DNA of 64,000 nucleotides, taken from assembly GCA_025153755.1 (NCBI GenBank), contig JAOALD010000003.1, forward strand, positions 248,001-312,000, read 5' to 3'. The stretch is from SAR92 clade bacterium H921. Its GTDB lineage: Bacteria > Pseudomonadota > Gammaproteobacteria > Pseudomonadales > Porticoccaceae. The notes under the pieces were generated by a model that saw nothing but the letters and a program-made list of their open reading frames with translations, ran no database searches and had not been told where the DNA came from. Below, one piece after another: positions 43,545 through 59,748 of the stretch (its first letter is position 1; each line of letters starts with the position of its first letter). Made by a program: the position numbers and the translations under genes.

Positions 43545-43598
43545 TTAGTAAGTTACTGAATATGCGCACATATTAGGTGAACTAAGGGGACCTGTCAA
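43545..43598 (-). promoter_or_regulatory. Early promoter with operator (copy C)
   Basis: Minus strand: TTGACA (43598-43593), 17-bp spacer, TAATAT (43575-43570), then TTCAGTAACTTACTAA at 43560-43545. AGTAACTTACT is a perfect 11-bp palindrome. The -35 region shares AGTTGTTGACAGG with the two other early promoters. Confidence 0.85.
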
Positions 43599-43643
43599 CA
43601 ACTGTGTAATATGGAATTTAACAACTGTGTAATATGGAATTTA
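43598..43643. repeat. Two tandem 23-bp repeats upstream of the early promoter
   Basis: Two exact copies of a 23-bp unit (plus-strand core CAACTGTGTAATATGGAATT) abut at 43620/43621 and run into the terS stop. Their position directly upstream of the -35 box suggests a further regulatory or AT-rich upstream element. Confidence 0.85.
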
Positions 43644-44111
43644 CCCGGCGAGAAACGAGTCAAAGGAATCTATCTCGATCGGTTTTGTTGCGTCGACTTT
43701 CGTCCGTGCAGATGCGGTGAGTCCATATTCGCCCATCATTTTCACGATGTTTGAGTAGCTGATATTCATCTGCGCTAGTGCCGGGTGAGGTCTGTTTTTT
43801 GTTTGTCCCTGAGAGCCTTCGCTTTGGACCATTAGGCCCTCGCTGTTCACGACGGCTCTCAGCCTGAGATACATCGACAGCTGGTCCGACAGTAACGCGA
43901 AGCCGATGGAATCAACCTCGGTCCCGACGCCCATGCTGTAGCAGTGGGCCGCGACTTGGTCGTAGAGCGCCGACGCGATTGGATCATGGTCTGTCCATGC
44001 TGGTTTGGTGGGTATTCCTGCCGGGACGGTGACGCTGTCCTGCGCCCGGTCCTTCCTGAATGTTCCCTCGAGTTTTTTGAGTGCCTCGGGCTTTCGTTTA
44101 CGTCCTGCCAT
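43641..44111 (-). CDS. terS: Terminase small subunit (P27 family)
   Basis: 156 residues: MAGRKRKPEALKKLEGTFRK is the typical basic N-terminus of P27-type small subunits; RLRAVVNSEGLMVQSEGSQG and KNRPHPALAQMN follow. It recognises the packaging site for TerL. ATG after GAGGAG. Confidence 0.88.
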   Translation of the reverse strand: MAGRKRKPEALKKLEGTFRKDRAQDSVTVPAGIPTKPAWTDHDPIASALYDQVAAHCYSMGVGTEVDSIGFALLSDQLSMYLRLRAVVNSEGLMVQSEGSQGQTKNRPHPALAQMNISYSNIVKMMGEYGLTASARTKVDATKPIEIDSFDSFLAG

Positions 44112-44581
44112 TTTATGCTCCTCAGCGTTGGCTAAATTAGGGCGGTTTTAGCCGGGGAGACGGTCCGGCACCTAGTGAGGAGGTCTAGGCTGTGCGAGAT
44201 CCGCAAACTCGCGATTGTTGCAAACTCTGTGTGAGCGCGATGCGCTGAGCTCCAAGGCTCTCAGGTTTATGGGCTGTCTCTGGTCCCACATTGCTGATGA
44301 TCGGAGTCTTTCACAGATTTGCCCTCTGTCGGGTAAGTCCTGACGGACTCGGGGAAAATTTGGAATATTTCATGATTTATCATGATTTTTGGGCTGATCA
44401 AAAAATGATCACATACTGACATTAAAAGAGATCGACTGGGCGGCGCTGCCCAGAGGGCCAGCCGTCAGGTATTGGACCACCCCCCCTCCCCTCAGAGTCC
44501 CCTGAGAGGCCGCCTGCTGGACGCTATATTTTTGTGTGTAATCGTCGACGTCAACTATAGATCTGCATAGAACGCAGCACA
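44112..44581. other. 470-bp non-coding region, candidate cos / packaging site
   Basis: I see no convincing gene here. It holds clustered short repeats: CATGATTT twice (44371-44388), TGATCA twice separated by AAAAA (44395-44411), and a pyrimidine tract CCCCCCCTCCCC near 44481-44492. Its place between an HNH gene and terS is where cos lies in HK97-like phages. A weak leftward promoter (TTGACG at 44554-44549, AATATA at 44530-44525) and a degenerate phage-promoter-like sequence near 44131-44156 could drive packaging and head genes. Confidence 0.5.
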
Positions 44582-44947
44582 CTAGCTCCTATGGCGTCTG
44601 TCCTTGGCGGTCTTGGCGTTGTGGCACGGGTGGCATAGAGCCTGCAGGTTTTTCGAGTCGTGCCTCAGCTCCCACTGCACACGCACCGGGATGATGTGAT
44701 CCACCATGTCGGCAGGGGTGGCCCTGCCTGCAGCCACACAGTGGGCGCATACAGGGTAGCGCCTGCGGTAGGCCTTACTGATTGAGCGCCACACCTTGCC
44801 CTGATAGAACTTGTTGAGGGCCTGACGTTCCTCTGTCTGGCTGTAGGCGGTCTTGGCCTCCTGTGTACAGTCGGGGCATCTGGTGCCCTTGATTGCCTTA
44901 CCTGCACACATAGGGGTGCTACATGCAGCAGGGGCTGCTCTAGGCAT
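44582..44947 (-). CDS. HNH endonuclease (packaging-associated)
   Basis: 121 residues from the ATG at 44947, which lies inside the last codons of the upstream kinase gene (8-bp overlap). Zinc-binding Cys pairs (YPVCAHC and LCHPCHN) frame the HNH core DMVDHIIPVRVQWELR and KNLQALCHPCHNAKT. HNH proteins next to terminase genes assist cos cleavage in HK97-like phages. Confidence 0.88.
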   Translation of the reverse strand: MPRAAPAACSTPMCAGKAIKGTRCPDCTQEAKTAYSQTEERQALNKFYQGKVWRSISKAYRRRYPVCAHCVAAGRATPADMVDHIIPVRVQWELRHDSKNLQALCHPCHNAKTAKDRRHRS

Positions 44948-45578
44948 TACTGGCCGCCCGGTCCCACTCTGCAGGGGTGACGTCGTTGAGCGAACGAGGC
45001 ACCACAACAGGCTGTAAGATCTTGACGATCTCTAGGGACTGCAAACATAGATCGTTGAGGCTGCCGTTGTTGTTTATCTTATAGCAGGCAGGACGTGAGA
45101 GACCTGCCTCAGAGGCATGCTCTGAGATGGGGGCAGCTGCTTCTCTATCAATACCAATGACACTGCCACCATTATTGAGCACAAACTGCTGCTCGTTGTC
45201 ATATCTGAGATCGGTGATAAACACAAAATCAATAGAATCCTGCTTGAACTCGTTGAGCTTGTTCAGAGCCAGTTTGATCCAGATTTCTGGGTCTATCAAT
45301 TGGCGTCCCCATTCGTCGCCGAGCAGTTGCATCATTTGGCGAGGGCTGGCCAGCAGATCGTGAGATTCGCTGAGATTTGATTCTTTAAATGTACGTTGTT
45401 CAAAATCAGAAACATCGCAGTCCAATATCATTGCGACGGCTGCTTTTATCGGGTCAGCGAATGATAATATTCGGATCTGTGCGTCTGGATTGCGATGCTC
45501 AATTTGCGACATCATTTTTGCAGCTGTGATGTCTTTTCCTGAACCTGCTGGTCCAGTAAGTGCGATTATTTGTGTCAA
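44940..45578 (-). CDS. Deoxynucleoside monophosphate kinase (T4 gp1-like)
   Basis: 212 residues starting at TTG six bases after GAGGAGA. The P-loop is GPAGSGKDITAAK near the N-terminus; FITDLRYDNEQQFV and SVIGIDREAA are later nucleotide-kinase motifs. It would phosphorylate dNMPs released from host DNA and feeds the same nucleotide pool as the phage's ribonucleotide reductase. Confidence 0.8.
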   Translation of the reverse strand: MTQIIALTGPAGSGKDITAAKMMSQIEHRNPDAQIRILSFADPIKAAVAMILDCDVSDFEQRTFKESNLSESHDLLASPRQMMQLLGDEWGRQLIDPEIWIKLALNKLNEFKQDSIDFVFITDLRYDNEQQFVLNNGGSVIGIDREAAAPISEHASEAGLSRPACYKINNNGSLNDLCLQSLEIVKILQPVVVPRSLNDVTPAEWDRAASNA

Positions 45579-45602
45579 TGTAATCTCCTCAGATTCTGAC
45601 TG

Positions 45603-45634
45603 AAAAAAAGCCCGAGGCTTTGAGGTCTCGGGCT
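45603..45634 (-). terminator. Intrinsic terminator downstream of the phage-type promoter
   Basis: Minus strand: AGCCCGAG, 10-base loop, CTCGGGCT, then seven T. It lies between the phage-type promoter (+1 at 45794) and the kinase gene, so it would end a transcript of about 190 nt unless read through. Confidence 0.85.
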
Positions 45635-45794
45635 GCTTTTGTATAAAGTCGGTCAGACTCCATGCAAGTCTGGCCTATTCGGCGAAGGTTGGGTGTAGCG
45701 GGGTTCTCTGTGGAATACAGGCTCCGAATTAGGTTCCGTGGCAGTCACTTAGGACATCGACGTGGTTGCAACATGTAAAATCGATTCCTCCTTC
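45603..45794 (-). ncRNA. Candidate phage small RNA or structured leader
   Basis: A 192-base interval bounded by a phage-type promoter and an intrinsic terminator, containing no normal gene. It opens with GAAGGAGGAATCG, a strong ribosome-binding sequence, followed 12 bases later by a nine-codon reading frame (MLQPRRCPK). A stable hairpin (CCAGACT / AGTCTGA, plus-strand 45652-45676) precedes the terminator. It may be a small RNA, a leader peptide with attenuator, or simply a 5' leader of the kinase gene. Confidence 0.45.
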
Positions 45795-45819
45795 TATAGG
45801 GAGGGTTTGTGTGACCGAT
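45794..45819 (-). promoter_or_regulatory. Candidate phage RNA polymerase promoter, copy 1
   Basis: Minus strand begins ATCGGTCACACAAACCC and ends CTCCCTATAG, with +1 at G45794 and initial transcript GAAGGAG. Aligned without gaps to copy 2 (55043-55069) it is identical at 23 of 26 positions. The CTATAG ending and the GAAG start are those of T7/SP6-family promoters. Directed leftward like the phage genes. Confidence 0.8.
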
Positions 45820-46601
45820 CAGACGTCCGGGAGGTACAACCACTGTTCCTCGTCCGGGTTGAAGAGCCGGATGGCTCTGTTCAGGCTGTCGTAATCGCCC
45901 TCGCGGAGAATACGAGCCATCTGCGCCTGCTCGAGGTAGTTGGTTTGTCCTTTTGCTTTGTAGGCTGCCACAACAGCGCCCCATGCTTCCTCAAAATCAA
46001 AATACCCACCGACCCAATAGTCCTTGAGCAGCGCGTGCGCACCTTTGGGACCGCAGCCCATCAGGCCTTTGTAGCCATCCGTGCTGTCGCCCACGAGAAC
46101 CTGAGTGAGCCAGAAATGATTGGCGTCAGACTCGGTGGTGTACTGGGGCCACGCCATGACATGGGGCCGAAGATATTCAGCATCCGGGAGCGTGTACATG
46201 TCCTTGTCGATAGACACGATCACACTGTTCGGGATCTTTCGATGTAACATATGAAACAGATCGTCGCCCTCGAGCCAGTCGATGGATATGTGGTCATAAC
46301 GTGCCTCGAGTGCTGTGCGAAGCTCCCCATAACAAACAGGCTTCGGCTTTGCTTTACGATTCATTTTGTAGGCAGGCATGACCAGCTTGCGCCAGTTGGT
46401 TGATGTTTTTGGTGAGTAGATCAGGATGACCGAGTTGCAGCCAGCCTGTCGCATTTCCTTCTCAATTTGTTCCTCAGCGTCGGCAATTGCAGAGCTGATG
46501 TCGGTCCAGATCTCACCACCAAAATCCCGCTGTGCTGATGAGCTCGCAACATAATTGATGACGTCTGCGTCGAGCAGCGCCACTTTGTCGATTGGTTCCA
46601 T
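45819..46601 (-). CDS. 5'-3' exonuclease (T7 gp6 / FEN family)
   Basis: 260 residues. Acidic metal ligands are visible in VALLDADVINYV, DWLEGDDLFHM, VSIDKDMYTLP and VLVGDSTDGYKGL, and the helix-hairpin-helix follows in GCGPKGAHALL. Removes RNA primers and degrades duplex DNA from 5' ends, supplying nucleotides and recombination ends. Starts 9 bp after the polymerase stop. Confidence 0.88.
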   Translation of the reverse strand: MEPIDKVALLDADVINYVASSSAQRDFGGEIWTDISSAIADAEEQIEKEMRQAGCNSVILIYSPKTSTNWRKLVMPAYKMNRKAKPKPVCYGELRTALEARYDHISIDWLEGDDLFHMLHRKIPNSVIVSIDKDMYTLPDAEYLRPHVMAWPQYTTESDANHFWLTQVLVGDSTDGYKGLMGCGPKGAHALLKDYWVGGYFDFEEAWGAVVAAYKAKGQTNYLEQAQMARILREGDYDSLNRAIRLFNPDEEQWLYLPDV

Positions 46602-46610
46602 TTTTGTCTC

Positions 46611-48503
46611 CTAGTGAGTGTCAGCCCATGAGCTTCCGACCATATGTTCGCCAGCGAGTGGGCACCTGAGCTTCAGAGTGACTCCCGCCATTTCGATTGC
46701 TTTTGAGAATGAGCTGCCGAGGGTTTCGGCGATGTCCGGATGTGCAGTCATTTGGACCTCATCGTGGACGTTGGCGACGTAATTCCAGCCGACAGGCATG
46801 TGGTCAGCATCGACCAGACCGAGAGCAGGCAGGACGTTGAAATGGAACTCCACGAGCGCCTGCTTCATTACGACGGCACCAGCACCCTGCAGCAGAGTAT
46901 TGAGAGCGGAGTGCTGTCCGTTGGTTGCTATCTTGCGACCGTCCAGACCCTTGAGCCACTTCTGCCGTTTGTCCCGTTCCTGACTGACAGCGATGATGTT
47001 CTCGAGCCCGGTGATACCTCTGAGCAATTTGTCCCGGACGACCTTCCCGTTCTTGTGGTTGATTGCCTTGGGGGATTGCCCTGCTCTTTTCGCATCGTCT
47101 GACAATATCTCGGCGAGCTTGAGATTTCCTGCACCATACAAATAGGCGTAGATCAGAGATTTCGCGCTGTTTCTGTCATAGAGCCCGGCGAGTCTTTGGG
47201 TCCTTGAGTGCGCATCAGTGCCCTCCGCGTTGTTCCCGTGGATGACCGCCTCGGCATAGCTGCCACCGTCCCAGATTGCAAGAAATGAGGCCAGCATTCG
47301 CAGTTCGAGCCCGGAGGCATCACAGCCGACCAGCTTGTGACCGTGGTCCGGCACCCAGACCTGTCGCATCCGAATGTCCTTCTTCTCGACCTGAGCCATG
47401 TTCGGATAAAAATGCGACATCCTGTGAGTCCGACAGCCAACCGATTTGACCCGGCCATGAACCCGTCCATCCTTCTCGAGCTTGAGCCAACCGTTCTTGC
47501 CATCGGCGAGCTGCGAGAGGCTCTTGGTCACCGTGAAATAACGACTCAGCGGCGTGGCCTCGGGGACCCGCATGTTCTTCAGGACCGACTCATCGATCTG
47601 AGCCATGCCGCTGGGGGTGAACTTGCTGGGTTTCCATTTTTGGTACTTGCTCGATAATCGATAAACGATCTGCAGCCTCGACCCGGCATTGAATACCTGC
47701 AGCGCAATTTTGGTGTAGGGTGCGCCCGCGACAATCCCCCGAGTCTTGTTGCCGACCTTGGGTGTCGTTGTTTCAATGTTGGCCCAGCGATGCTCCTCGT
47801 GCGTCCAGTTGCCTTTGGCCGGGATGTACTTCGGCGGGAACGTGTCCTGCAGATCACGCTCGAGCATGATTGACTCCTCTCGGAGCTTGCCCTCGAGATC
47901 TCTGGCAGCATCGAGGTCCAGTCGAAACCCGTGAGCACTCTGCAGCGATAGACACCAGCAGGTTTTGTGCTCGAGATCGATGGCCTGTCGCCAGTCGATT
48001 TTGTTGTGGACCAGATCGGCCTTGAGCTGTTTCTGCAGCTCCCGGTAGATCCGGATATTGATCTCGACGTCGATCTCACAATAATCGAACATCTCTTTAA
48101 ACACCTCGGCCCGTGTTTTGTCGGGCTCAGGCTCCATCAGGAAATTTTTGAAGTCGCCCTTCGGTGCGCCGTACTCGGCCCCGAATGATTTGATCGCGTG
48201 TGAGCGACGCTCAGGGTCCAGCAGCTGGCTGACGATTAATGTGTCCCAGCATTTATTGAGCGTGATGACGTCCGGGTGCAGTTTCCGCAGTGCCCAGAAA
48301 TCAAACCCGATGAGATTGTGTGCAACTACCCTGTCGGCATCTTTGAGCCGCTGCAGGCCTTCGGCCAGCGAGGGGTAATCGTCCGAATAGTCGGTGTACG
48401 TTGTCACCTCTCCGGTGACCGGGCAGCCGATACCGCAGGACCAGATCGTGGTCATGGTGTCGACGAAACCGTCTGTCTCTAGGTCAAATATTAATGTCTT
48501 CAT
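46611..48503 (-). CDS. Family A DNA polymerase (T7 gp5-like) with 3'-5' exonuclease
   Basis: 630 residues. Exonuclease motif FDLETDGF at the N-terminus; polymerase motif A VGCDASGLELRMLAS, motif B RNSAKSLIYAYLYGAG, motif C YVANVHDEVQM. The residue equivalent to E. coli Pol I 762 is Tyr452, as in T7. Replicates the phage genome with the adjoining helicase-primase and SSB. Leader shares AAACCGCC with the helicase-primase leader. Confidence 0.93.
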   Translation of the reverse strand: MKTLIFDLETDGFVDTMTTIWSCGIGCPVTGEVTTYTDYSDDYPSLAEGLQRLKDADRVVAHNLIGFDFWALRKLHPDVITLNKCWDTLIVSQLLDPERRSHAIKSFGAEYGAPKGDFKNFLMEPEPDKTRAEVFKEMFDYCEIDVEINIRIYRELQKQLKADLVHNKIDWRQAIDLEHKTCWCLSLQSAHGFRLDLDAARDLEGKLREESIMLERDLQDTFPPKYIPAKGNWTHEEHRWANIETTTPKVGNKTRGIVAGAPYTKIALQVFNAGSRLQIVYRLSSKYQKWKPSKFTPSGMAQIDESVLKNMRVPEATPLSRYFTVTKSLSQLADGKNGWLKLEKDGRVHGRVKSVGCRTHRMSHFYPNMAQVEKKDIRMRQVWVPDHGHKLVGCDASGLELRMLASFLAIWDGGSYAEAVIHGNNAEGTDAHSRTQRLAGLYDRNSAKSLIYAYLYGAGNLKLAEILSDDAKRAGQSPKAINHKNGKVVRDKLLRGITGLENIIAVSQERDKRQKWLKGLDGRKIATNGQHSALNTLLQGAGAVVMKQALVEFHFNVLPALGLVDADHMPVGWNYVANVHDEVQMTAHPDIAETLGSSFSKAIEMAGVTLKLRCPLAGEHMVGSSWADTH

Positions 48504-48536
48504 GGTGCCTCCAGTTTTGGGCGGTTTCGTAATGGT

Positions 48537-48560
48537 AAAAAAGGGCCCCGGAGGGCCCTT
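48537..48560 (-). terminator. UCCG-tetraloop intrinsic terminator after the reductase gene
   Basis: Minus strand AAGGGCCC-UCCG-GGGCCCTT followed by TTTT, 7 bp after the ribonucleotide reductase stop and just upstream of the DNA polymerase leader. The strongest member of the UNCG hairpin family. Confidence 0.88.
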
Positions 48561-48566
48561 CAGTGG

Positions 48567-50459
48567 TCAGCTGCCGATGTCGACCATCTCGCAGACGCTG
48601 CCTGTGCATGCGAGGGTCTGGCTGCTGGTCGTGGTGTCTTCCATTTCGAACTCTTGGAGTCCGGTCCAGTCGATCCCTGTCGGCATTTTTGCCAATGCGG
48701 TCTCATAGACTTCCTGAGTGCATTCTTGATATGGCGCTTGTTTGTAGCTGTGATCAGAGTGAGGCAGGAATGACACGCCCGACATCTCATCGAAGTGCTC
48801 AAACACCCACGCGCCGACTTTCATCCATTCGTCATTGCGGACCGTGATGGTCACTGAGGGTTTGTGCTCACACCAGTGGCGCTGATACATCAGCCAGATC
48901 TCCAGCTGTTTGATTGCATCGACGTCGTCCCTCGTGACTGCTCCCTCCGGTGCTTTGGTGGGGAAACTGAACACGGTGGTCGTGCCGCCCATCGCGCAGG
49001 GCTCGTTGGGGATACCGCTGGCAGCGAGGAACTGAGTGAGTGGGTCCTTGTTGTCACCACGCACGGTCCGGATGTAATAGTCCGAATGCCGCGTGTGGAT
49101 ACCTGACGAGCTGTCGACCAGTTGGCTGACAGTGCCGCTCGGTTTCACGGCGGTAATCGCCGCAGACACGGGAATCCCGAACTCATAGGCCCACACCTTG
49201 TTGGTGTCGATGGCCACCTCCTTCAGCTCCTCGAGAATAGACTCAGCATTGGCACCGAGACTGATCGCCCGGTTGTCCATGATCCCAGTCAGTGACACAC
49301 CGAGCAGCCGCTCCTCAGCGGTGTTGTCGGTCCAGCACTTTCGGAGATAGGGGAAATAGACCAGCGTCGACTGGATGGTGCCCAGTATTGCTGCGAGCCT
49401 GACCTTTTCGGCGAGAGTCCCACGGGTGTCGTCTGGACGTGCCACGACCTCGGTGAGATTACAGAACTGATATGGTCTGAGGATTATCTCGCTGCAGGGG
49501 TTGGTCCCGAAGTCTCGATTTGCGTCCCGGCGTCCATTCTTGGCTGCCTGCTTTTGAGATGCCGGGCGACTGAATAGACCACGCTCTCCAGATTTAGACT
49601 CAACCAGTGCAGACCATTCGCGCAGGAATGTCTCCATGTCTGGCTTTTCGGTGTAGCAGACTGAATTGTTTGCGAGAGCACGCTGCGGGTCCGTGTTGTA
49701 CCACTGGCCCGACTTGGCGTGACGCATACGATCATCACTGAGGTTCGACAGGGAGATCATCGCAGAACGACGCACCCCACCGCAGACAACAACCTCACCA
49801 ATTTTGCACATGATGTCGTGACACTGGATCGAGGTGAGCTTTGTGCCGACCGCTGCTTTGAATGTCTCGCAGGTGAATCGGAACAGGTCCTCGAGGGGCT
49901 CAGGGCCACTCGCTCTGCCGCCGAATGTCTTCAGCTTAGCGCCAGCCGGGCGAACCTGCGAAACGTCCCACAATGGCACCTCGCCTGCATAGAGCAGAGA
50001 GATCAATTGACGGTAGGCCTTGGCCCAGCCCTCTTTGGAGTCTCGGACCACGATGGTGCTCTGGCTTTCAAACATAGCGTCCGGCACGTCCGGCAGCTTT
50101 GAGACATATTGACGCTCGACACTGAAGCCGACGCCCGTCCCGCATAGCAGGATGAACATCGCCTCGTCGAATGACTTCGGGTCATCGATAGGCAAATAGC
50201 TGCAGTTATAGGCGCAGGTGTTGTCCCGGTCCATTGCGTCGCCTGCAGTCATTAGGCCGCGCATCGAGGGCATGACATTTAGGGTGACGATGGCAGTGCG
50301 CAGCTCGTCGAATGTTACTTGGTCGACTTTCCCAGCGACCACGTTCTCCATGTAGCGGTCAACGGTCTCATCCCATGACTCCCTGCGATTCTCTGCAGGT
50401 ATCCATCGGGCGTACCGGCTCAGGGCGATATATTTTTGATATTCAGACATTTGTGTCAT
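48567..50459 (-). CDS. nrdJ: Adenosylcobalamin-dependent ribonucleoside-triphosphate reductase (monomeric class II)
   Basis: 630 residues, shorter than the Lactobacillus enzyme (about 740). NTCAYNCSYLPIDDPKSF holds the first redox Cys; FGTNPCSEIILRPYQFCNLTEVV the thiyl-radical Cys and catalytic Asn/Glu; VSAAITAVKPSGTVSQLVDS the substrate phosphate loop. The C-terminal pair C-x4-C (LACTGSVCEM) supplies reducing equivalents. Converts NTPs to dNTPs without oxygen, needing host or environmental B12. Confidence 0.92.
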   Translation of the reverse strand: MTQMSEYQKYIALSRYARWIPAENRRESWDETVDRYMENVVAGKVDQVTFDELRTAIVTLNVMPSMRGLMTAGDAMDRDNTCAYNCSYLPIDDPKSFDEAMFILLCGTGVGFSVERQYVSKLPDVPDAMFESQSTIVVRDSKEGWAKAYRQLISLLYAGEVPLWDVSQVRPAGAKLKTFGGRASGPEPLEDLFRFTCETFKAAVGTKLTSIQCHDIMCKIGEVVVCGGVRRSAMISLSNLSDDRMRHAKSGQWYNTDPQRALANNSVCYTEKPDMETFLREWSALVESKSGERGLFSRPASQKQAAKNGRRDANRDFGTNPCSEIILRPYQFCNLTEVVARPDDTRGTLAEKVRLAAILGTIQSTLVYFPYLRKCWTDNTAEERLLGVSLTGIMDNRAISLGANAESILEELKEVAIDTNKVWAYEFGIPVSAAITAVKPSGTVSQLVDSSSGIHTRHSDYYIRTVRGDNKDPLTQFLAASGIPNEPCAMGGTTTVFSFPTKAPEGAVTRDDVDAIKQLEIWLMYQRHWCEHKPSVTITVRNDEWMKVGAWVFEHFDEMSGVSFLPHSDHSYKQAPYQECTQEVYETALAKMPTGIDWTGLQEFEMEDTTTSSQTLACTGSVCEMVDIGS

Positions 50460-50486
50460 GCGTTGCGTTTCCTCATTGGTTTTGTT

Positions 50487-52142: not shown

Positions 52143-52152
52143 TGGTGCCTCC

Positions 52153-52605: not shown

Positions 52606-52655
52606 GGGGAAGCCCTCCAAGGGCTTGGAGCCCTGAGAGGGTTCGCGGTGTTTAC

Positions 52656-52844: not shown

Positions 52845-53050
52845 GGGCCCTCCTTGTCGCGATCCATTTGCTCGCGATAGTATTTTTTGAGGTCCTCAGT
52901 CGACAGGTCCTCGACCGACACTTTGAACGGTGAGCCTGCAAACCATGCGCCGACATACAAAACAGCAGTGCCGATCAGTAGGACCAAAATCGCAAAGCCC
53001 ATGAGCAGGCTGCCCAGAATCCGGCGCAGCTTATGAGTGAAGTCCAGCAT
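52841..53050 (-). CDS. Small single-span membrane protein
   Basis: 69 residues: basic N-terminus, transmembrane segment LGSLLMGFAILVLLIGTAVL, then an acidic cytoplasmic or periplasmic tail (EDLSTEDLKKYYREQM). It overlaps the upstream winged-helix gene by 20 bp. Possible superinfection or lysis-timing factor, unproven. Confidence 0.65.
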   Translation of the reverse strand: MLDFTHKLRRILGSLLMGFAILVLLIGTAVLYVGAWFAGSPFKVSVEDLSTEDLKKYYREQMDRDKEGP

Positions 53051-53255
53051 CGTTGTCTCCTTTAAATAAATACCGGGCGTACTTCTGCCCCGTGATGTCT
53101 CGCTTGAAATCCGTCACGATCTCCATGCCTGCGCGACGCAGTCTGTGGATGTTGCTGGTGATCGATCTGACCTTGTAAAGGGTCGCCGCTTCGACTGCGG
53201 TAATTGAGCCGATTCGACGGAGGTGGTTCTCGAGGCTTGAATCTTGTGGTGTCAT
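53031..53255 (-). CDS. Small winged-helix DNA-binding protein
   Basis: 74 residues. RIGSITAVEAATLYKVRSIT is a helix-turn-helix and NIHRLRRAGMEIVTDF the wing, as in phage proteins with a winged-helix domain. Could be an early-to-middle regulator. The start follows AAGGA. Confidence 0.7.
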   Translation of the reverse strand: MTPQDSSLENHLRRIGSITAVEAATLYKVRSITSNIHRLRRAGMEIVTDFKRDITGQKYARYLFKGDNDAGLHS

Positions 53256-53273
53256 GATGGAATCCTTTTTGGT

Positions 53274-53381
53274 TCATATAAGTTGGTGAAAGGTAGAGCT
53301 CAGGGTGATAAAAGAGGCGACGGCCAACATGTAGGCCAGCGCCCTGATGTGCTTGGGAGCTCTGTGATCTTGATTGTTCAA
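53274..53381 (-). CDS. Candidate 35-residue membrane peptide
   Basis: TTG start overlapping the RusA stop as TTGA. NNQDHRAPKHIRALAYMLAV continues into a hydrophobic segment ending at TFHQLI. It fills the only gap between two packed genes. Short and with a weak ribosome-binding site, so tentative. Confidence 0.4.
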   Translation of the reverse strand: MNNQDHRAPKHIRALAYMLAVASFITLSSTFHQLI

Positions 53382-53839
53382 TGTTTCTCTGTGACCTCGT
53401 ATAAATAGACGTGAGACCCGGGGGCCTCATTGGTTAGGGGGTCGCAATAGCGCTTGAATGCGTGGAGGCTGACCACCTGCACGTCGTCATTCCAAAATGT
53501 TCCCGACTTGGTCATGACGTCCATGACGCCCTTGACGTAGTTGTCCACATCTCCCCGGGGGTGTTTTAGCTTCCCGCTTTTGGGTTTTGTGCAGACGGTT
53601 TCGATCAGGATGGCGACAGGTCCCGTGATGGGTGGCCTCGCGTGGTAGGCGTTTGCGTAGGGTTGCGCCAGTTGACGGAACTCGGTGTAAGGTTTCCCGA
53701 AATAGGTCCCCCACTTGGTGACCCTCGGCCTTGACGCTGGCCGGGGCTCCACCGGGATCGCGAAGTAGCGGACATCGTCCGACTGCCTTCGCATTGCTTT
53801 CAACATTGTGGCGACTGCTTTTTTGACAGCCTGAGACAT
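53378..53839 (-). CDS. rusA: RusA-family Holliday junction resolvase
   Basis: 153 residues from the ATG at 53839. IPVEPRPASRPRVTKWG and PRGDVDNYVKGVMDVM (metal-binding Asp pair), then WNDDVQVVSLHAFKRYC, are the RusA core. Resolves branched DNA before packaging, a role filled by gp3 in T7. Confidence 0.9.
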   Translation of the reverse strand: MSQAVKKAVATMLKAMRRQSDDVRYFAIPVEPRPASRPRVTKWGTYFGKPYTEFRQLAQPYANAYHARPPITGPVAILIETVCTKPKSGKLKHPRGDVDNYVKGVMDVMTKSGTFWNDDVQVVSLHAFKRYCDPLTNEAPGSHVYLYEVTEKH

Positions 53840-53846
53840 CCCGGAC

Positions 53847-54440
53847 CTATAGGTCGTCGATGTCGATCGGGCTGCCGCTGGGGACTTCGGCCTCGAGGGC
53901 TGCAGGCTCGTCGTCGGCGGTGAAACCTTCGTCCTCGCCAAACACTGAGGCAGCGTTGCCGGGACCAGTGCCACCTGAGTTGTTCTTAGCGATTAGCTTG
54001 ACCATGTCGAGATAAAAGCTGACACCTTTCTGGGCTCCGTTGTAAGCCTTGGCAGCACCTGCCACCCGAATGGTGTCGCCGCCCATGATGATGATGTTCT
54101 CGGGGAGCGGTTGGTTCTTAGCGTCGACCATGCTGGGCTGTCGGACTGACTTCATGGTCATGTAGACCATTCCGAGATACTGCTCTTTCCCAGATTCGTC
54201 GCCGTCTTTTAACGGGTTGTGAAATCCTGGGGGGATCTTGTCGCCGAACTCGCGCTGCGCGGCGTCTTTAATAGTGGCCTTGAGCGTTCCGACCATTGGG
54301 TCGTCCTTTTGAAATGCGACGGTGACTTTATATTTGCCGTCTGAGTATTCCGACCCGGTGTCGGGCTTGTTGAGCCATGCGAAATGAGCGGTGCCAACAG
54401 TGGTGGCGAAATTGACATACAGCGATTTTTTGGTAGACAT
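53847..54440 (-). CDS. Single-stranded DNA-binding protein (T7 gp2.5 / DUF2815-like)
   Basis: 197 residues from the ATG at 54440 after GAGGAGA. YKVTVAFQKDDPMVGTLKAT and NIIIMGGDTIRVAGAAKAY are OB-fold family segments; the C-terminus is strongly acidic (SGSPIDIDDL), as needed to contact polymerase and helicase. An in-frame upstream extension is Arg/Gln-rich and rejected. Confidence 0.87.
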   Translation of the reverse strand: MSTKKSLYVNFATTVGTAHFAWLNKPDTGSEYSDGKYKVTVAFQKDDPMVGTLKATIKDAAQREFGDKIPPGFHNPLKDGDESGKEQYLGMVYMTMKSVRQPSMVDAKNQPLPENIIIMGGDTIRVAGAAKAYNGAQKGVSFYLDMVKLIAKNNSGGTGPGNAASVFGEDEGFTADDEPAALEAEVPSGSPIDIDDL

Positions 54441-54502
54441 AGAGAATCTCCTCAATGGTGTCTGAGTGGTTGGGTTTTGGGTTGGGGGTTGTTGCGGTTT
54501 GG

Positions 54503-54697
54503 TTAGTCCTTGGACGGACCTTTTTCGACGAGCTCGGTGACTGTGTTTTGATAGATGTCGAGCAGTGCGCTGATCTCTTTCAGCCTCATTTCGCACGCTC
54601 TGAATTCCGCAGTCAGGTCGTCGGCTCTGGCTATAAGAAACTGAACTTCAGGTTCTAGGTCCGCGAGCTCGTAGTCTTTCTCATTAATAGTGACGAT
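54503..54697 (-). CDS. Small phage protein (DUF6447-like) with an apparent AUC start codon
   Basis: 64 residues beginning (I/M)VTINEKDYELADLEPEVQF, a pattern common in small phage proteins, followed by a coiled helix (EFRACEMRLKEISALLDIYQ). The reading frame has a perfect ribosome-binding site, AAGGAG-ACAACC, but the next codon is ATC. No ATG, GTG or TTG lies between the upstream in-frame stop and a Met deep in the frame. A neighbouring gene (55598) has the same leader, AGGAGACAACC, followed by ATG. Either rare AUC initiation or a start lost by one substitution. Confidence 0.6.
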   Translation of the reverse strand: MVTINEKDYELADLEPEVQFLIARADDLTAEFRACEMRLKEISALLDIYQNTVTELVEKGPSKD

Positions 54698-54742
54698 GGT
54701 TGTCTCCTTGGTTTGGTTGGTGGTAGTAGTCGATGGAGGTGA

Positions 54743-54826
54743 CTAGCAGAGCAGGGCCTTCAGTAGCATCAGCAGCACAAAGGCTGGGGGTATCAAGCTC
54801 AGGTCTGACGTCGTCGACTTCTTCAT
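54743..54826 (-). CDS. Candidate 27-residue membrane peptide
   Basis: MKKSTTSDLSLIPPAFVLLM then LLKALLC; basic N-terminus and one hydrophobic segment. The ATG overlaps the upstream stop (ATGA) and follows GGAG. Very short, so tentative. Confidence 0.4.
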   Translation of the reverse strand: MKKSTTSDLSLIPPAFVLLMLLKALLC

Positions 54827-54987
54827 TGCTTCTCCATCTCGATGGTCCCATCGGGTCTGACCCAATAGGGTCCAGCTCTAGGCCTAGACAAAGAGCGCAC
54901 ATATTCATCAACCGTGCTGATCTTCGCCTTCCTGTCGATCTCTGCATTCGTCATGTCCATCATTCGGGGGCTGCTTGGTTTGTTCAT
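54823..54987 (-). CDS. Small unknown early protein, first gene after phage-type promoter copy 2
   Basis: 54 residues from the ATG at 54987, six bases after AAGGAG. KISTVDEYVRSLSRPRAGPY and the C-terminal VRPDGTIEMEKQ. No family recognised. Confidence 0.6.
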   Translation of the reverse strand: MNKPSSPRMMDMTNAEIDRKAKISTVDEYVRSLSRPRAGPYWVRPDGTIEMEKQ

Positions 54988-55013
54988 GATTGCTCCTTGA
55001 CACATCGGGTGTG

Positions 55014-55028
55014 TCTTAGTGACTTAGA
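55014..55028. promoter_or_regulatory. Operator-like site downstream of phage-type promoter copy 2
   Basis: Plus strand CTTAGTGACTTAGAG; its complement contains TAAGTCACT, nine bases of the early operator, 15-29 bases after the predicted start of transcription. Weaker match than the four main copies. Confidence 0.4.
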
Positions 55029-55042
55029 GACTGGGGGGTCCT

Positions 55043-55069
55043 CTATAGGGCGGGGTTTTGTGACCGATT
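55043..55069 (-). promoter_or_regulatory. Candidate phage RNA polymerase promoter, copy 2
   Basis: Minus strand begins ATCGGTCACAAAACCCC and ends CGCCCTATAG, +1 at G55043, initial transcript GAGGACC. It lies just downstream of a terminator, so it restarts transcription toward the replication genes. Confidence 0.8.
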
Positions 55070-55105
55070 GCTGCAGGCCGCATTCTGGCTGGGTTTTAGC
55101 GAGGC

Positions 55106-55128
55106 AAAAAAAAGGCCCACGAGGGGCC
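55106..55128 (-). terminator. Intrinsic terminator of the small early-gene operon
   Basis: Minus strand GGCCC-CTCGT-GGGCC followed by eight T. It lies 25 bp after the stop of the 45-residue gene and upstream of the phage-type promoter, separating host-polymerase from phage-polymerase transcription. Confidence 0.87.
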
Positions 55129-55152
55129 AAAGGGGGGGATTGCTAGGGGTAA

Positions 55153-55290
55153 TCAGTTACAGCGACGCAGGGCCTCTGTGAGGCACGCTTCGTGCATCGG
55201 AGTGTCAGGCATTAAGTCAGCGAGCATGTCTCTCAGCTCCAAATCTGAGAACGATCGGACCATCTCCATGCGGATCTCGTGGATGCTCAT
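55153..55290 (-). CDS. 45-residue unknown early protein
   Basis: Starts at 55290 (ATGA overlap with the upstream stop). MEMVRSFSDLELRDMLADLM and a Cys-containing helix (MHEACLTEALRRCN). Unknown. Confidence 0.55.
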   Translation of the reverse strand: MSIHEIRMEMVRSFSDLELRDMLADLMPDTPMHEACLTEALRRCN

Positions 55291-55598
55291 GCTGCACCGA
55301 CCTTGATGCTCAAAGCATCCAAAGGTGTGGGGCACGGATTGCCTTTTTGTGGGCGCCCTTCCCACGCCACAGACTGGTCGACCAAAATCTTCAACCAGCG
55401 CAGCGTCAGGCCGTAATAGCTCACAGATCTGTAGTCGCCCTCGCCGTGGACGTCGTCGCTGGCGATGATATTGAGGGCGCTGGTGCCGTTTGGCATGGTG
55501 TACTCGATGAGGGCCTTGTGCTTCCAGACAGCGAGCACGATGGCCTCACGGTCCAGCTGGTTGCGGTATACATTTAATTCGTCGTCTATCTGTAGCAT
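55287..55598 (-). CDS. Unknown early protein
   Basis: 103 residues after AGGAG. YRSVSYYGLTLRWLKILVDQ and AIVLAVWKHKALIEYTMPNG; no recognised domain. A UCCG hairpin stands directly before its ribosome-binding site. Confidence 0.65.
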   Translation of the reverse strand: MLQIDDELNVYRNQLDREAIVLAVWKHKALIEYTMPNGTSALNIIASDDVHGEGDYRSVSYYGLTLRWLKILVDQSVAWEGRPQKGNPCPTPLDALSIKVGAA

Positions 55599-55612
55599 GG
55601 TTGTCTCCTGAT

Positions 55613-55626
55613 GGCCCCGGAGGGCC
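55613..55626 (-). terminator. UCCG-tetraloop hairpin in the early operon
   Basis: GGCCC-UCCG-GGGCC between the 58-residue gene and the ribosome-binding site of the 103-residue gene. No U-run, so processing or mRNA stability is likelier than termination by host polymerase. Confidence 0.55.
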
Positions 55627-55636
55627 GTTTGGTTGA

Positions 55637-55813
55637 TTAGCAGAATTTTGCGAGGTAGTTTGAAGTCGAGCGAACTGCTGCAGCCTCAGTCTTAAAGTGG
55701 CGGCCTTTATAGTGATGGATCACTGTTTTGTAGCCATCTCTCTCGATGCGAACGATTAGGGCATAAAAGCTGCCGTCTGAGTCTTTGCTTATTGCTGCTT
55801 GGTGGTTGCTCAT
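55637..55813 (-). CDS. 58-residue unknown protein directly behind early promoter B
   Basis: MSNHQAAISKDSDGSFYALI then RIERDGYKTVIHHYKGRHF; GGAGAG precedes the ATG. Below the usual length cut-off but it fills the interval and is first in its operon. The beta-rich pattern resembles a small DNA- or protein-binding domain. Unknown. Confidence 0.65.
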   Translation of the reverse strand: MSNHQAAISKDSDGSFYALIVRIERDGYKTVIHHYKGRHFKTEAAAVRSTSNYLAKFC

Positions 55814-55828
55814 TTTGTCTCTCCGGGG

Positions 55829-55909
55829 TTAGTAAGTCACTGTAGTATGGCCCTCATTATAGTGATATTGAGGGACCTGTCAACAACTTTGCATTATTAA
55901 GTCACTGTA
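55829..55909 (-). promoter_or_regulatory. Early promoter with two flanking operators (copy B)
   Basis: Minus strand TTGACA (55883-55878), 16-bp spacer, consensus TATAAT (55861-55856). TACAGTGACTTACTAA (55844-55829) lies downstream and TACAGTGACTTAATAA (55909-55894) upstream, so the promoter is bracketed by two operators 65 bp apart, a layout suited to looping or cooperative repression. Confidence 0.87.
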
Positions 55910-55910
55910 T

Positions 55911-56126
55911 TTAGGAATAAAAAAAAGTCCGTACAGGTAGCAGATTGACGCCCGACTCACCAGCCTGTCGGAACATACGGTCCCGGACCAGATCCCGGTG
56001 AGCAGACTGAGCTGCAACGTCCCTGCCCTGCCCTTCGATGCTGCGGATGGTCAGCAGGTCCAGCTGCGCATCGACGTCCCTGAGCTCTCTGGCGAGCTGC
56101 AGCAGCGCCTCGGTCATCTTATTCAT
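55911..56126 (-). CDS. 71-residue helical unknown early protein
   Basis: Start at 56126, inside the last codons of the upstream gene. MTEALLQLARELRDVDAQLD is a long amphipathic helix. Its stop abuts operator B2. Confidence 0.55.
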   Translation of the reverse strand: MNKMTEALLQLARELRDVDAQLDLLTIRSIEGQGRDVAAQSAHRDLVRDRMFRQAGESGVNLLPVRTFFYS

Positions 56127-56388
56127 TAGGGTCGAGCTCCTCATCACATTCGTTGCAGTGGTTGATGTAGGACTTCTCCCACACTGTCTGATCGCCGATG
56201 TCATATGAGTCCTGATGTTCTACGCTGTAGAACTCGCCGTCGAAGCGAGAAACGTCACATCGGGGACAATGGCCCTCGGGTTTCGGTTCGCCCTTCCTGC
56301 CGAATATTGCGTCCCAGTTGTTAGCGAACGCGACGCGATCGCCTGTGCGTTGTGCGGAACCCTTCCCGCCATGGTTTTGTCCGTGCAT
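56119..56388 (-). CDS. Zinc-ribbon-like unknown early protein
   Basis: 89 residues from the ATG at 56388 (GGGAG upstream; TAATG overlap with the preceding stop). Two Cys pairs, HCPRCDVSRF and HCNECDEELD, likely bind zinc; DAIFGRKGEPKPEGH precedes. DNA-, RNA- or RNA-polymerase-binding zinc proteins of this size are common phage early products; no specific role shown. Confidence 0.65.
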   Translation of the reverse strand: MHGQNHGGKGSAQRTGDRVAFANNWDAIFGRKGEPKPEGHCPRCDVSRFDGEFYSVEHQDSYDIGDQTVWEKSYINHCNECDEELDPNE

Positions 56389-56510
56389 TAGCAAACTCCC
56401 AAATTAATGCAATCGTGAAAGGCCATTTCGCTGGCCCAGAAATAAAGGCCCGCGAGTAGCGTGCCGAGAATTACCCGGGGAATTACCGGGGACTTTGTTT
56501 GGTATTTCAT
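56388..56510 (-). CDS. 40-residue membrane protein
   Basis: KYQTKSPVIPRVILGTLLAG then LYFWASEMAF; one membrane span. AAGGA precedes the ATG, and the stop overlaps the next start (TAATG), supporting translation. Confidence 0.6.
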   Translation of the reverse strand: MKYQTKSPVIPRVILGTLLAGLYFWASEMAFHDCINLGVC

Positions 56511-56519
56511 TGCTGATCC

Positions 56520-56693
56520 TTATGCTGAAATGCGGCGACCGCATGATCGACAGCCAGTCACCCAGTCACCGCTGCGGTTGTTGCATTTGCAGATCTTGGT
56601 CCGTACTTCATCCGGGCCCATTTTGTAGCCCCCAGAGGTTTTGGGGCCGTTTGCTGGTCTTCTTCTGGTTTGTTCATAGATTGTGAACTTCAT
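56520..56693 (-). CDS. 57-residue Cys-rich early protein
   Basis: Starts at 56693 (ATGA overlap). Cys residues C-x-C and C-x2-C (ICKCNN, TGCRSCGR) suggest a small zinc knuckle. Basic. Unknown. Confidence 0.6.
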   Translation of the reverse strand: MKFTIYEQTRRRPANGPKTSGGYKMGPDEVRTKICKCNNRSGDWVTGCRSCGRRISA

Positions 56694-57061
56694 GCTGCTG
56701 CCCCTGTGATGCGTGCAGTTTGATCGGCTGACAGCTGACCCCATCCAGTTCGACCGCACATGTAAGCTGTGCCAGTGGCCGTGTTGTGTACGATGTCGCC
56801 GACAGACAGTGAGTGCAGCGGGCGAAGTCTAGTGATTTTTGCCTCGCTCTCATCTGTCCACATGTTCATCCCTTGAAAGGCCTGTTCAAGTTCGGTGAAA
56901 GTGGTCTCGCAAACTTTGTTATAAAACTGCTCGTGCTTGTCTTCAAAATGATCGACGCCGAAAACCGAGGTCTCCTGCTGCGCGACAAATTTGGGAGAGT
57001 CCCATGCGTTGCGTGGATCCATTTCGTTTTCGAGGATTACGATTTGGTAAATGTTCAACAT
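56690..57061 (-). CDS. Unknown early protein with YodL-like C-terminus
   Basis: 123 residues from the ATG at 57061; the frame runs further upstream through the operator and promoter, which is rejected. LHSLSVGDIVHNTATGTAYM then CGRTGWGQL resembles the HSLSVGD-x-I...G-x-x-Y motif of YodL-type and related small proteins of mobile elements. First gene behind promoter A. Confidence 0.68.
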   Translation of the reverse strand: MLNIYQIVILENEMDPRNAWDSPKFVAQQETSVFGVDHFEDKHEQFYNKVCETTFTELEQAFQGMNMWTDESEAKITRLRPLHSLSVGDIVHNTATGTAYMCGRTGWGQLSADQTARITGAAA

Positions 57062-57081
57062 TGTGTAGGCCTTTTTGGTGG

Positions 57082-57161
57082 TTAGTAAGTCACTGAATGT
57101 GCGTGTATAAAACCACACACCCAGCGACCTGTCAACAACTTTATAATGCAAAGTTACTGTA
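57082..57161 (-). promoter_or_regulatory. Early promoter with operators (copy A)
   Basis: Minus strand AGTTGTTGACAGG with TTGACA at 57135-57130; a weak -10 (TTTATA, 57111-57106). TTCAGTGACTTACTAA lies at 57097-57082, and a second partial operator, TACAGTAACTT, at 57161-57151 upstream of the -35. Confidence 0.8.
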
Positions 57162-57165
57162 CTTT

Positions 57166-59685
57166 TCAACTAAAAAAATAGGGAGCCTCTTCAATCTCCT
57201 CGATCCGGTACACACCACGCGCTGGTGGCTCTGGAAGGTCCAGACCGCTGAGCTCAACCATTTGCTCGTGGAACGCTTGGATCTGGTCCTCCTGAAAGAT
57301 CTCCAGAGCTGAGAGTCTCAGGGCTGCATTGAGGTCCTCGATCGCGCTGGCGTGCATTCCATAGCTGTCGTGTATCATCGCAAAATCCGTGTGCCCTTGG
57401 TTCGCCATTTTCTCAACGGTGAGCTGCAGCAGCGCCCCATCGAAGCTGTGGATTATGTTCGGGGCACTCGATTGAGCCTGTCGACGCGCATCGAGCCCGA
57501 GTTTCTGGTCCTCCATGTGCAGAATCACATCACCGAGGACAGTCTTGATCTCGCGCTTCGACGTTTTGTTGTAGGCCTGAGTCACTCGAAGCCCCATCGG
57601 GGTCGTCCATGAAAGTGGCAGCTCAGCCTTGGCAATGATTCCGCTCACTTTTTGGAAATAGCTCATAATCTCGACGGCCTTTCCATTGACCGACGTCATC
57701 GCCTCGAGGATGCAATCTGTCATGTAAACGCTCGCATCCGCCCGACTCGCGCACTCAAAATCGTTGCAGTGCTTATCACCGACCAGCTGCTCGGCAATGC
57801 CTCGAGGTGTCACACCATAGGGGACACACATCACAGCACGTTTGACCAGTCCACGACTTTTGCCCGGGTTATCCTGCAGCCTTTCGAGCCACTCTGCGGC
57901 GATCTCAGACCCTCCAGCCTCGCGTGATAGGATCGATAGGACCGACGCAGCAACCGTCGCATACAGGTCAAAACGCTCGTCCTTGGCCGTGCAATTGGTC
58001 GCCTCAGCGCCGACCTGATCTTTGCCCAACATACTCAAAATCTGCATTCCGTTGGTCGTGCCATCGATGGCGACCGGGATGTGTGAAACGAACGTCGTCG
58101 GGTCCCCAGATTCATGAGCTCGGGCGAGCTCTTTGGCAGCGGCGAGAAACAGCAGGGGCTCGGCAGCGGCTGTCCACTCCTCGTTGGTCAGCGGGTCAGA
58201 AGCCACACGGATCATCAGGTCGAGGTTGAAAGTTGCCCACAGCTCCCGATTAAAGAGAGTCTCTTTGTCCTTGCCATAGCAGTTGGCTGCGTGAATCTTG
58301 AGCCACTTGAGGCCAGACGTCCCGAGCTGTTTTCCTTTGGCGAACATGAGCAGAGCCTTTGCAACCTGATCACCTTGGGGCGTGAGCTCCTTGGGGTACG
58401 GATACAAGCGACCGCGAAAATCTGCAAAATGTGGAAACGCAAATTCAGAGTGCTGCGCCATTTTGTGAGCTATCTCGATCTTTCGACGGAATGCTCCATG
58501 CTTTCCCCGGGCGCTTGCGATCTTCTCGATGGCGTCCTTTCTTTTTGAATGGTATGCGCTGCGCTCTTTTTTACTCAGTGCGGCGTAGGCGTCAGAGTTA
58601 AGCGCCGGGGTCACCTGATGGCAGGCCTGAGTCACACCGCCGACCTCCGCTCCGGTCCCATAGAGCATGTCGACGACCATCAAAATGAACGGGTTAATTT
58701 TCCACATCGTCGCCTGCACATTATTGACGGCGCTCAGGAATCGCTCCGACGCCGCTGTTTTATCAGCTGAGGTGTGTTGCATTTGGTGGTTGCTGAATAA
58801 TGGCGACTCGATATGGTGATAGCCTCCCCGAACCTTTGCGTCGACATATGCAAACGGGACCGGAGCGATCAACGTCGGAAGCATGTACGGGCTCTGAAGC
58901 TCTGCAAAATCTTCACAGCTCTGGTATTCCGACCACGCCTCCTCGGTCAAATAGAAAAACCTCTGCGTTTTCCCGAGCTCCCTTTTCGTTTCATAGTTAA
59001 ATAGGCCCGGGTTGGCTGCGACCAGAATGTCGATTATCTTGAAGCCAATCTTCACGACGTCTGTCCCCCAGTCAATGTTGGCGTAGTTGTCGAATTTCTT
59101 TTCCCAGCGCGCCAGCTTGCGGTTGTTTATTTGACCCTTTGCTCGTGCAATTAACAGCTCGGCGTATGACTTTTTGACTTGGTCCCCGTTGTCGTTTAAA
59201 ACTCCAATCGATTCCGCTTTGGACTTTGCTTTCCAGTTTTCAAATTTCAGTTGCTGGCGCAGAGCTTGCCCGATGCTTTTGGCTAATCGGTTGAGCCCGG
59301 CCTTTCGGGTCAGCATCGAGGTCTGTTTGCGTGATAATCCTGACACGGTGTCAGATGAACCCTCGGAGCAAAAAGCGAAGGCTTTATTTAGGGCGATCAC
59401 TGCGGTCTGCTCAGCAGAGACCAGCCCGATCATATAGACCCAATTATCAACACCACCGCCGTGCGTGTTGTTGAACATTAAATCGTCGACCTCGAGGTAC
59501 GCCTCATTGATTGCAGCGATGGTCCGAGGCAATGCGTTGCTGATTAAACGCTGGCCACCTGTCGTGCCGTTCATGGACTTCTCGGCCATTGCTTTCTGGT
59601 ACTTGGCAACACCCTCCTCGACTTGGTGGTTTTCCCATCGGATTTGCTTTTCCAGCATTTCATTGCTGATTGCTTTCTGGTTCAT
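57166..59685 (-). CDS. Single-subunit T7-type DNA-directed RNA polymerase
   Basis: 839 residues from the ATG at 59685 (GAGGAG eight bases upstream); an in-frame ATG at 59763 would translate the operator and lacks a ribosome-binding site. Catalytic features are intact: DFRGRLYPYP; Asp541 in VAIDGTTNGMQ (T7 Asp537); Lys615 and Tyr623 in VKRAVMCVPYG (T7 Lys631 and Tyr639); Asp773 in MIHDSYG (T7 Asp812). T7 RNAP has 883 residues, so this is slightly shorter. It should transcribe phage genes from dedicated promoters, of which two candidates are seen. Its own leader contains the repressor operator, so it is presumably silent in the lysogen. Confidence 0.95.
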   Translation of the reverse strand: MNQKAISNEMLEKQIRWENHQVEEGVAKYQKAMAEKSMNGTTGGQRLISNALPRTIAAINEAYLEVDDLMFNNTHGGGVDNWVYMIGLVSAEQTAVIALNKAFAFCSEGSSDTVSGLSRKQTSMLTRKAGLNRLAKSIGQALRQQLKFENWKAKSKAESIGVLNDNGDQVKKSYAELLIARAKGQINNRKLARWEKKFDNYANIDWGTDVVKIGFKIIDILVAANPGLFNYETKRELGKTQRFFYLTEEAWSEYQSCEDFAELQSPYMLPTLIAPVPFAYVDAKVRGGYHHIESPLFSNHQMQHTSADKTAASERFLSAVNNVQATMWKINPFILMVVDMLYGTGAEVGGVTQACHQVTPALNSDAYAALSKKERSAYHSKRKDAIEKIASARGKHGAFRRKIEIAHKMAQHSEFAFPHFADFRGRLYPYPKELTPQGDQVAKALLMFAKGKQLGTSGLKWLKIHAANCYGKDKETLFNRELWATFNLDLMIRVASDPLTNEEWTAAAEPLLFLAAAKELARAHESGDPTTFVSHIPVAIDGTTNGMQILSMLGKDQVGAEATNCTAKDERFDLYATVAASVLSILSREAGGSEIAAEWLERLQDNPGKSRGLVKRAVMCVPYGVTPRGIAEQLVGDKHCNDFECASRADASVYMTDCILEAMTSVNGKAVEIMSYFQKVSGIIAKAELPLSWTTPMGLRVTQAYNKTSKREIKTVLGDVILHMEDQKLGLDARRQAQSSAPNIIHSFDGALLQLTVEKMANQGHTDFAMIHDSYGMHASAIEDLNAALRLSALEIFQEDQIQAFHEQMVELSGLDLPEPPARGVYRIEEIEEAPYFFS

Positions 59686-59732
59686 GGTGGAGCTCCTCGT
59701 GGTTGCTTTGTGGTTCGAAATTTGCGCCGAAC

Positions 59733-59748
59733 TTAGCAAGTTACTGAA
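59733..59748 (-). promoter_or_regulatory. Operator in the RNA polymerase leader (copy D)
   Basis: Minus strand TTCAGTAACTTGCTAA, one base from copy C. A poor promoter candidate precedes it (TTGAAA, 17 bp, TCTTGC), with the same promoter-operator spacing as in the other copies. Confidence 0.75.

Follow-up and report, generated by a model that had tools for sequence, protein, structure and literature searches.

Near-palindromic sites around promoters of a SAR92 clade prophage as probable operators of a lysogeny regulon

Which protein acts on a short near-palindrome that recurs, always in the same orientation, ahead of several genes of a prophage, and what does it control there? This question is raised by a stretch of 64,000 nucleotides from SAR92 clade bacterium H921 (contig JAOALD010000003.1, positions 248,001 to 312,000; the whole stretch is called the window below). 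The original prediction, made from the letters alone, was that one repressor silences three early operons and the phage RNA polymerase gene through these sites. We found that the sites have a fixed placement around sigma-70-like promoters, have no exact copy elsewhere in the genome and recur in related phages. The phage-specific operator family is real and very probably defines a lysogeny regulon; the protein and the mechanism we infer. From sequence evidence, the sites are likely to be operators of the lysogeny repressor of the prophage, and that repressor is most likely the XRE protein encoded at 16943-17356. The idea of a one-repressor regulon survives insofar as phage-specific operators are common to several promoters and the polymerase gene, and recur in company with a conserved XRE gene on contigs that extend far enough to include it, but its wording on operons and on palindromy had to be changed.

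Operator copies in the prophage and in the host genome

A search for TTAGYAAGTYACTGWA on both strands of the window, with up to three mismatches, gave nine matches, against a mean of 1.63 and a largest value of 5 in shuffled sequences. Four copies were exact (43545, 55829, 57082 and 59733), the copy at 55894 had one mismatch and the other four had three mismatches each. The shorter core CAGTRACTTRCTAA, with up to two mismatches, was matched eight times where 0.99 matches were expected (four exact, one with one mismatch and three with two). The four predicted copies were thus all exact and uniform in orientation, and the predicted second copy at 55894 was recovered, with its single mismatch. 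Another second copy, given as 57151, does exist as a partial copy, but its register places it at 57146-57161 (TACAGTAACTTTGCAT), where the left arm is intact and the right arm degenerate. All six copies face minus-strand genes. The core had been described as perfectly palindromic, which holds for one of the four exact copies, at 43545 (with an odd centre); each of the other three has one unmatched pair.

A scoring matrix built from 25 distinct sites on the contigs of 14 relatives, with the window excluded, ranked five of the six sites first in the window (30.5 at 57082, 30.2 at 55829, 29.3 at 43545, 23.4 at 59733 and 20.9 at 55894), and the next-best place, in host DNA, scored 11.3. All these sites are on the minus strand. 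The exact copy at 57082-57097 lies just downstream of a -10 box, before an early gene encoding 123 amino acids (56690-57061); a site in this position is called O1, and one upstream of the -35 box O2. Its O2 is the partial copy at 57146-57161, 64 bp away, with a matrix score of only 5.9. The exact O1 at 55829-55844 precedes an early gene for 58 amino acids (55637-55813) and has its O2 (55894-55909) 65 bp away. The third exact O1 (43545-43560) precedes a 206-amino-acid gene (42910-43530) in a slot between the terminase subunits, and the fourth exact copy (59733-59748) was found in the leader of the phage RNA polymerase gene, as anticipated, about 48 nt before the ATG.

The genome (2,574,135 bases in 13 contigs) was scanned with up to two mismatches, with the reversed pattern as a control, a scan for which the original prediction had called. 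It yielded 14 matches. All four exact matches were in the prophage. Of the two with one mismatch, one is the prophage O2 and the other falls within a host reading frame at least 727 amino acids long; the eight with two mismatches were all in the host. The reversed pattern gave eight matches in all, so the host matches are at chance level and exact matches are confined to the prophage. On host contig C1 (L010 and L011, around 1501), TRAGTAAGTTACTTTA occurs in two near-identical stretches 3.6 kb apart. These copies, intergenic and at two mismatches, would suit a binding site borrowed by the phage from a host regulator, but there is no exact copy elsewhere in the genome and the inexact ones are about as numerous as those of the reversed control; this explanation, the least probable of those considered here, was rejected on the basis of the scan.

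Promoter units and the site in the polymerase leader

The three O1 sites outside the polymerase leader accompany sigma-70-like promoters, all on the minus strand. The promoter at 55856-55883 (TTGACA-16-TATAAT) has 12 of 12 consensus bases and that at 43570-43598 (TTGACA-17-TAATAT), which lacks an O2, has 10 of 12; the promoter at 57107-57135 (TTGACA-17-TTTTAT, -10 box at 57112-57107) was missed by the consensus scan and was read by eye, and the unit is conserved in relatives. The -35 context AGTTGTTGACAGG is present at all three promoter copies, as had been predicted, and the distance from O1 to the ATG is 15-21 nt. The operators had also been placed 9-13 bp downstream of a -10 box; this is correct for the three promoters (9 bp at 57082, 11 bp at 55829 and 9 bp at 43545) but not for 59733, where no promoter is recognisable.

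Promoters were then listed in the window and six related environmental contigs as AGTTGTTGACAGG (up to three changes) followed by an O1 with at least 11 of 13 letters. The seven phages contain 22 such promoters, 21 of which have CAGTRACTT (7-9 of 9 bases) at a fixed upstream offset, before the -35 box. The O1-O2 spacing is 65 bp in 13 of them, 64 bp in seven and 62 bp in one. The sole exception is the window promoter at 43603, where a 23-bp tandem duplication (43597-43640) stands in place of O2.

The genes behind the unit are far less constant. In the window and 14 contigs, some of them near-identical, 30 units with a readable gene precede nine families lacking BLASTP similarity at 1e-5 (one G194 unit escaped the pattern used for this count). 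As the families are unrelated, what is kept is the regulatory unit, which outlives its gene. In the terminase slot, the same unit precedes the 206-amino-acid gene in the window, a gene for 242-243 amino acids in six contigs and one for 142 amino acids in two. The slot itself (42910-43530), between the small and large terminase subunits, is variable, with three unrelated genes across phages. Two of the three operons predicted to be early do lie in the early region, but the third is this slot, with different genes in different phages. PADLOC gave no match for three gated genes. When the viral collection was searched for TTGACAGG together with O1, 18 stretches on 17 contigs emerged; 14 of these fall in the phage group of the window, with which they have polymerase, terminase, portal or DNA polymerase genes in common. 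The remaining contigs (L069, L074 and L077) look unrelated, with no polymerase, none of eight window genes and no repressor match, and may be fragments. They carry TTGACAGGG followed by TAGTAACTTACTA (at 5114 in L069, 3524 in L074 and 3108 in L077), in L069 ahead of a 221-amino-acid gene.

Units that have clearly been copied and shuffled might be promoter parts spread by recombination and owe nothing to a repressor: they could be UP-like or initial-transcribed elements, or O2 could be an activator site, for which its upstream position near -55 would be suitable. This is distinctly improbable: the near-palindrome is also present at the polymerase gene, where no promoter was matched, and in phages G206 and G207, which have other promoters, and an initial-transcribed element would not recur upstream of the -35 box. 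The position of O1 at the start of the transcript, with the ATG so close at the three promoters, would also be expected of a 5'-leader RNA element acting on translation or decay. Five-base arms around a single base cannot close a hairpin, however, and O2 lies outside the transcript, which leaves such an element scarcely probable; an RNA hairpin was ruled out, as no loop is possible.

The fourth exact site differs from the others in its surroundings. It precedes a gene for a T7-like single-subunit RNA polymerase (57166-59685, minus strand; PHROG 414, E 6.2e-176), and in the gap between the integrase and polymerase genes TTCAGTRACTTGCTA (TGCAG in G198) is common to the window and five close relatives, with flanks that differ between subgroups; G197 is cut short at this gap. 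On the strand of the operator, the consensus scan called no sigma-70-like promoter around 59733, so the mechanism there may be a roadblock. In G207 (polymerase 49-52% identical, present in part), a TTGACG-16-TATACT promoter and an O1-like site with two changes lie directly before the polymerase gene, and in G206 an exact core lies about 190 bp upstream of that gene, in reversed orientation. No clear motif for promoters specific to the phage polymerase emerged when the regions upstream of genes in the window and in G195 were searched for k-mers, and in the six sequences scanned nothing else matched the TTGACA block before the polymerase gene at two mismatches or fewer.

The candidate repressor and other possible binders

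The XRE repressor candidate is an open frame from an ATG at 16943 to 17356, on the plus strand, recognised by Pfam domains, PHROG repressors and a structure model. Its Pfam scores (28.3 bits for HTH_3, cut-off 23; 30.4 for HTH_19, cut-off 30.2) place it among the XRE helix-turn-helix proteins, and the model of the residues from 17033 is helical, with a standard helix-turn-helix and XRE helices (predicted local distance difference test score 87.6). The nearest solved folds found by Foldseek are restriction-modification C-proteins, with weak matches (E 0.013 and above), and PADLOC matched the protein only to the models HTH_VI and RmrA. The family is present on 18 viral contigs, with a near-invariant recognition helix, YYTMI[AS]Q, and the repressor, integrase and polymerase genes occur together on 10 of 15 relatives' contigs. 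No isolated phage had the repressor at E 0.01, and isolates with a polymerase match share less than 60% identity; no genome contig was matched with P0001, and seven weak ones were with the alignment.

Two other phage proteins might bind the sites within the same regulon, which we consider unlikely. The first is a winged-helix protein (53031-53255; HTH_39, E 2e-11) in the replication region; the second is the product of gene X (16621-16905, minus strand), a small gene divergent from the repressor gene, between it and the attachment site. The HTH_39 protein also co-occurs with the sites, being found on 10 of 15 relatives' contigs, the other five of which end before that region (gene order by eye), so co-occurrence alone cannot pick the binder. 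Its gene, however, is embedded among the replication genes, on the strand that the gated promoters transcribe, and would be expected to be silent in a lysogen. Gene X is present on five of 15 contigs with 39-51% identity, as befits a fast-changing gene, but has no known domain (no Pfam or PHROG match). The XRE gene occupies the position reported for the MarR-like regulator in T7-like temperate phages (PMC10134795). Gene position and the need for expression in a lysogen would thus favour the XRE protein as the binder.

Contigs outside the matrix set were scored with the matrix and places scoring at least 14 were counted. Two phages with a MIAQ-type recognition helix (G206 and G207, repressor 61-65% identical) had five and four distinct places, respectively, some of them beside the polymerase gene. 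Four with a MISQ-type helix (repressor 53-59% identical) had one place each (G199, G208 and G210) or none (G200). Scores of 14 are not uncommon by chance: single shuffles reached 16.7-21.8, and the shuffled maximum averaged 9-13; one place is therefore unremarkable, and four or five are remarkable. The pattern of sites and helices, based on two helix groups, fits a co-change of repressor and operator.

Besides the frequency of such scores and the co-occurrence of the HTH_39 protein, several observations weigh against assigning the sites to the XRE repressor. The promoter listing took in only promoters having an O1, and the common O1-O2 spacing may reflect descent, the polymerases of the core relatives being 84-99% identical; because these relatives are close, their sites are not independent events. 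Two of the five places in G206 are reversed relative to the genes, and not all are at a clear promoter. Twelve of the 18 contigs of the repressor family lack the 13-mer within one mismatch (three of them also without a visible polymerase gene, eight of the MISQ type and one a 33% outlier). The leader site in the form described above is absent from the more distant G199, and G200 and G201 carry TACAGTACTTACTGTA (ACAGTACTTACTGTA in G201) instead. The repressor start aligned in ten closer relatives is an ATG (M[NH]KQG), but the corresponding codon in the window (17033) reads ATT, with an in-frame ATG 30 codons upstream, and the only promoter-like match on the plus strand by the gene (16947-16975) begins after this upstream ATG; the lysogen may produce little repressor, or an N-extended form. 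Finally, no significant operator was found before the repressor gene: AACTTACTATT, at about 16920, resembled a seventh site and was rejected as evidence of autoregulation (p=0.057 alone in the window; Fisher p=0.15 over eight phages).

G202, with a repressor 84% identical, has no strong site; its contig ends in the integrase gene and shows no polymerase. The MISQ phage G210 has CAGTAACTTT before early genes, in five copies, and one similar copy before the polymerase gene, with a different sequence in the O1 place. On its contig (L089, 12615-14749), there are five occurrences of CAGTAACTTTGAGTTAAAT or a near copy following the polymerase gene, and a terminator-like hairpin, read by eye, precedes four of them. 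Three of these units continue into the same promoter-like stretch with the O1 place altered, one lacks this stretch and one is cut at the contig end.

The prophage (16510-61368) is a mosaic of T7-type transcription and replication genes and HK97-type portal, protease, capsid and tape measure protein genes; it carries a T7-type primase-helicase, a family A DNA polymerase and a ribonucleotide reductase. Its attL core (16510-16525), at the 3' end of a tRNA-Pro gene (16449-16525), shares 15 of 16 bases with the attR core (61353-61368). The right end contains the tyrosine integrase gene (59984-61237, minus strand; PHROG 1, E 1.1e-27) and the polymerase gene, and the left end the XRE gene and gene X. 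In G193, G194 and G195, the repressor, X, integrase and polymerase genes are neighbours; the two pairs are apart in the window because integration falls between X and the integrase gene. In related contigs, gene X lies upstream of the integrase gene on the same strand, and by position only it is a possible excisionase gene.

Proposed mechanism and related systems

In the mechanism that we propose, a dimer of the XRE protein would bind O1, at about +5 to +19, and, upstream of the -35 box, O2. As the two sites are 64-65 bp apart, about six helical turns and hence on the same face, binding would clamp or loop the promoter and exclude host RNA polymerase. The single site in the polymerase leader would stop read-through or a weak promoter there, and, with no phage polymerase in the lysogen, no middle or late transcript would be made. 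All units would open together once the repressor was lost. Pfam detected only the helix-turn-helix domains, followed by about 30 residues, and no S24 peptidase domain (RecA-stimulated cleavage); in the absence of a cleavage domain in 107-137 residues, an antirepressor or a falling repressor level would be a likelier trigger than RecA cleavage. A more extended proposal, tentative and somewhat doubtful as a whole, is that the O2-promoter-O1 unit is a self-contained, exchangeable gate, that the operator in the polymerase leader is a roadblock rather than a promoter operator, and that sister phages form distinct immunity groups.

CI repressors of the lambda/434 type have an XRE-type helix-turn-helix and a near-palindromic operator of about 14-17 bp. 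The present system resembles them in both respects, but no divergent CI/Cro operator cluster was found, the sites span 16 kb and there is no detected cleavage domain. Of the hallmarks of an autoregulated CI-type switch, an operator at the repressor's own promoter was not supported (p=0.057; p=0.15) and an S24 domain was not detected. As for membership of Autographiviridae, the T7-like RNA polymerase, family A DNA polymerase and T7-type primase-helicase are present, but the head is of the HK97 type, with a tape measure protein, rather than a T7-type head and short tail (part of the structural frames was scanned).

The following comparisons are with published systems. LUZ100, a T7-like phage with temperate features, has a MarR-like regulator and an integrase before the polymerase, and Boeckman et al. 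(2022), as cited there, proposed that sites for a MarR-like regulator flank the promoter upstream of the polymerase gene, lysogeny being controlled via the polymerase (PMC10134795); a paper on Helicobacter prophages makes a similar MarR proposal (PMC11321410). As in these MarR-controlled phages, the regulator gene adjoins those of the integrase and RNA polymerase, but here the regulator is an XRE protein, several further genes are gated by the sites as well, and the phage combines HK97-type head genes with a tape measure protein. Cluster A mycobacteriophages have one repressor and many dispersed stoperators, mostly in one orientation relative to transcription; these are 13-bp, asymmetric sites, mostly outside promoters, with as many as 30 per lysogen (PMC6550527). 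One candidate repressor and dispersed sites of shared orientation are found here too, but the six sites are near-palindromic, and five of them are at promoters, paired or single. A stoperator-style block of elongation by the repressor is possible for the polymerase-leader site. The start-associated sequence (SAS) of Cluster K mycobacteriophages is short, conserved, placed ahead of many genes and without an exact copy in the host (PMC3203893), features shared with the present unit; SAS, however, lies at the translation start, where it is proposed to act, whereas the unit described here consists of a promoter and operators.

The accessible parts of the open-access literature gave no account of these operator sites or of an XRE protein in such a lysogeny role, and a MarR-like regulator is the basis of the proposals found there on how phages with a T7-like polymerase can be temperate. 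XRE operators would be a second solution, with defined sites, a candidate protein and natural variants. If the unit is a gate, a small gene behind it would be silent in the lysogen and switched on at induction, and early and accessory genes could be swapped freely without disturbing immunity. If the leader site is a roadblock, one repressor would govern transcription by both the host and the phage polymerases. If sister phages form immunity groups, they would keep the layout and change the downstream site and the recognition helix. The arrangement also points to a modular route by which phages could acquire genes without expressing them in the lysogen, and allows immunity groups to be predicted from sequence.

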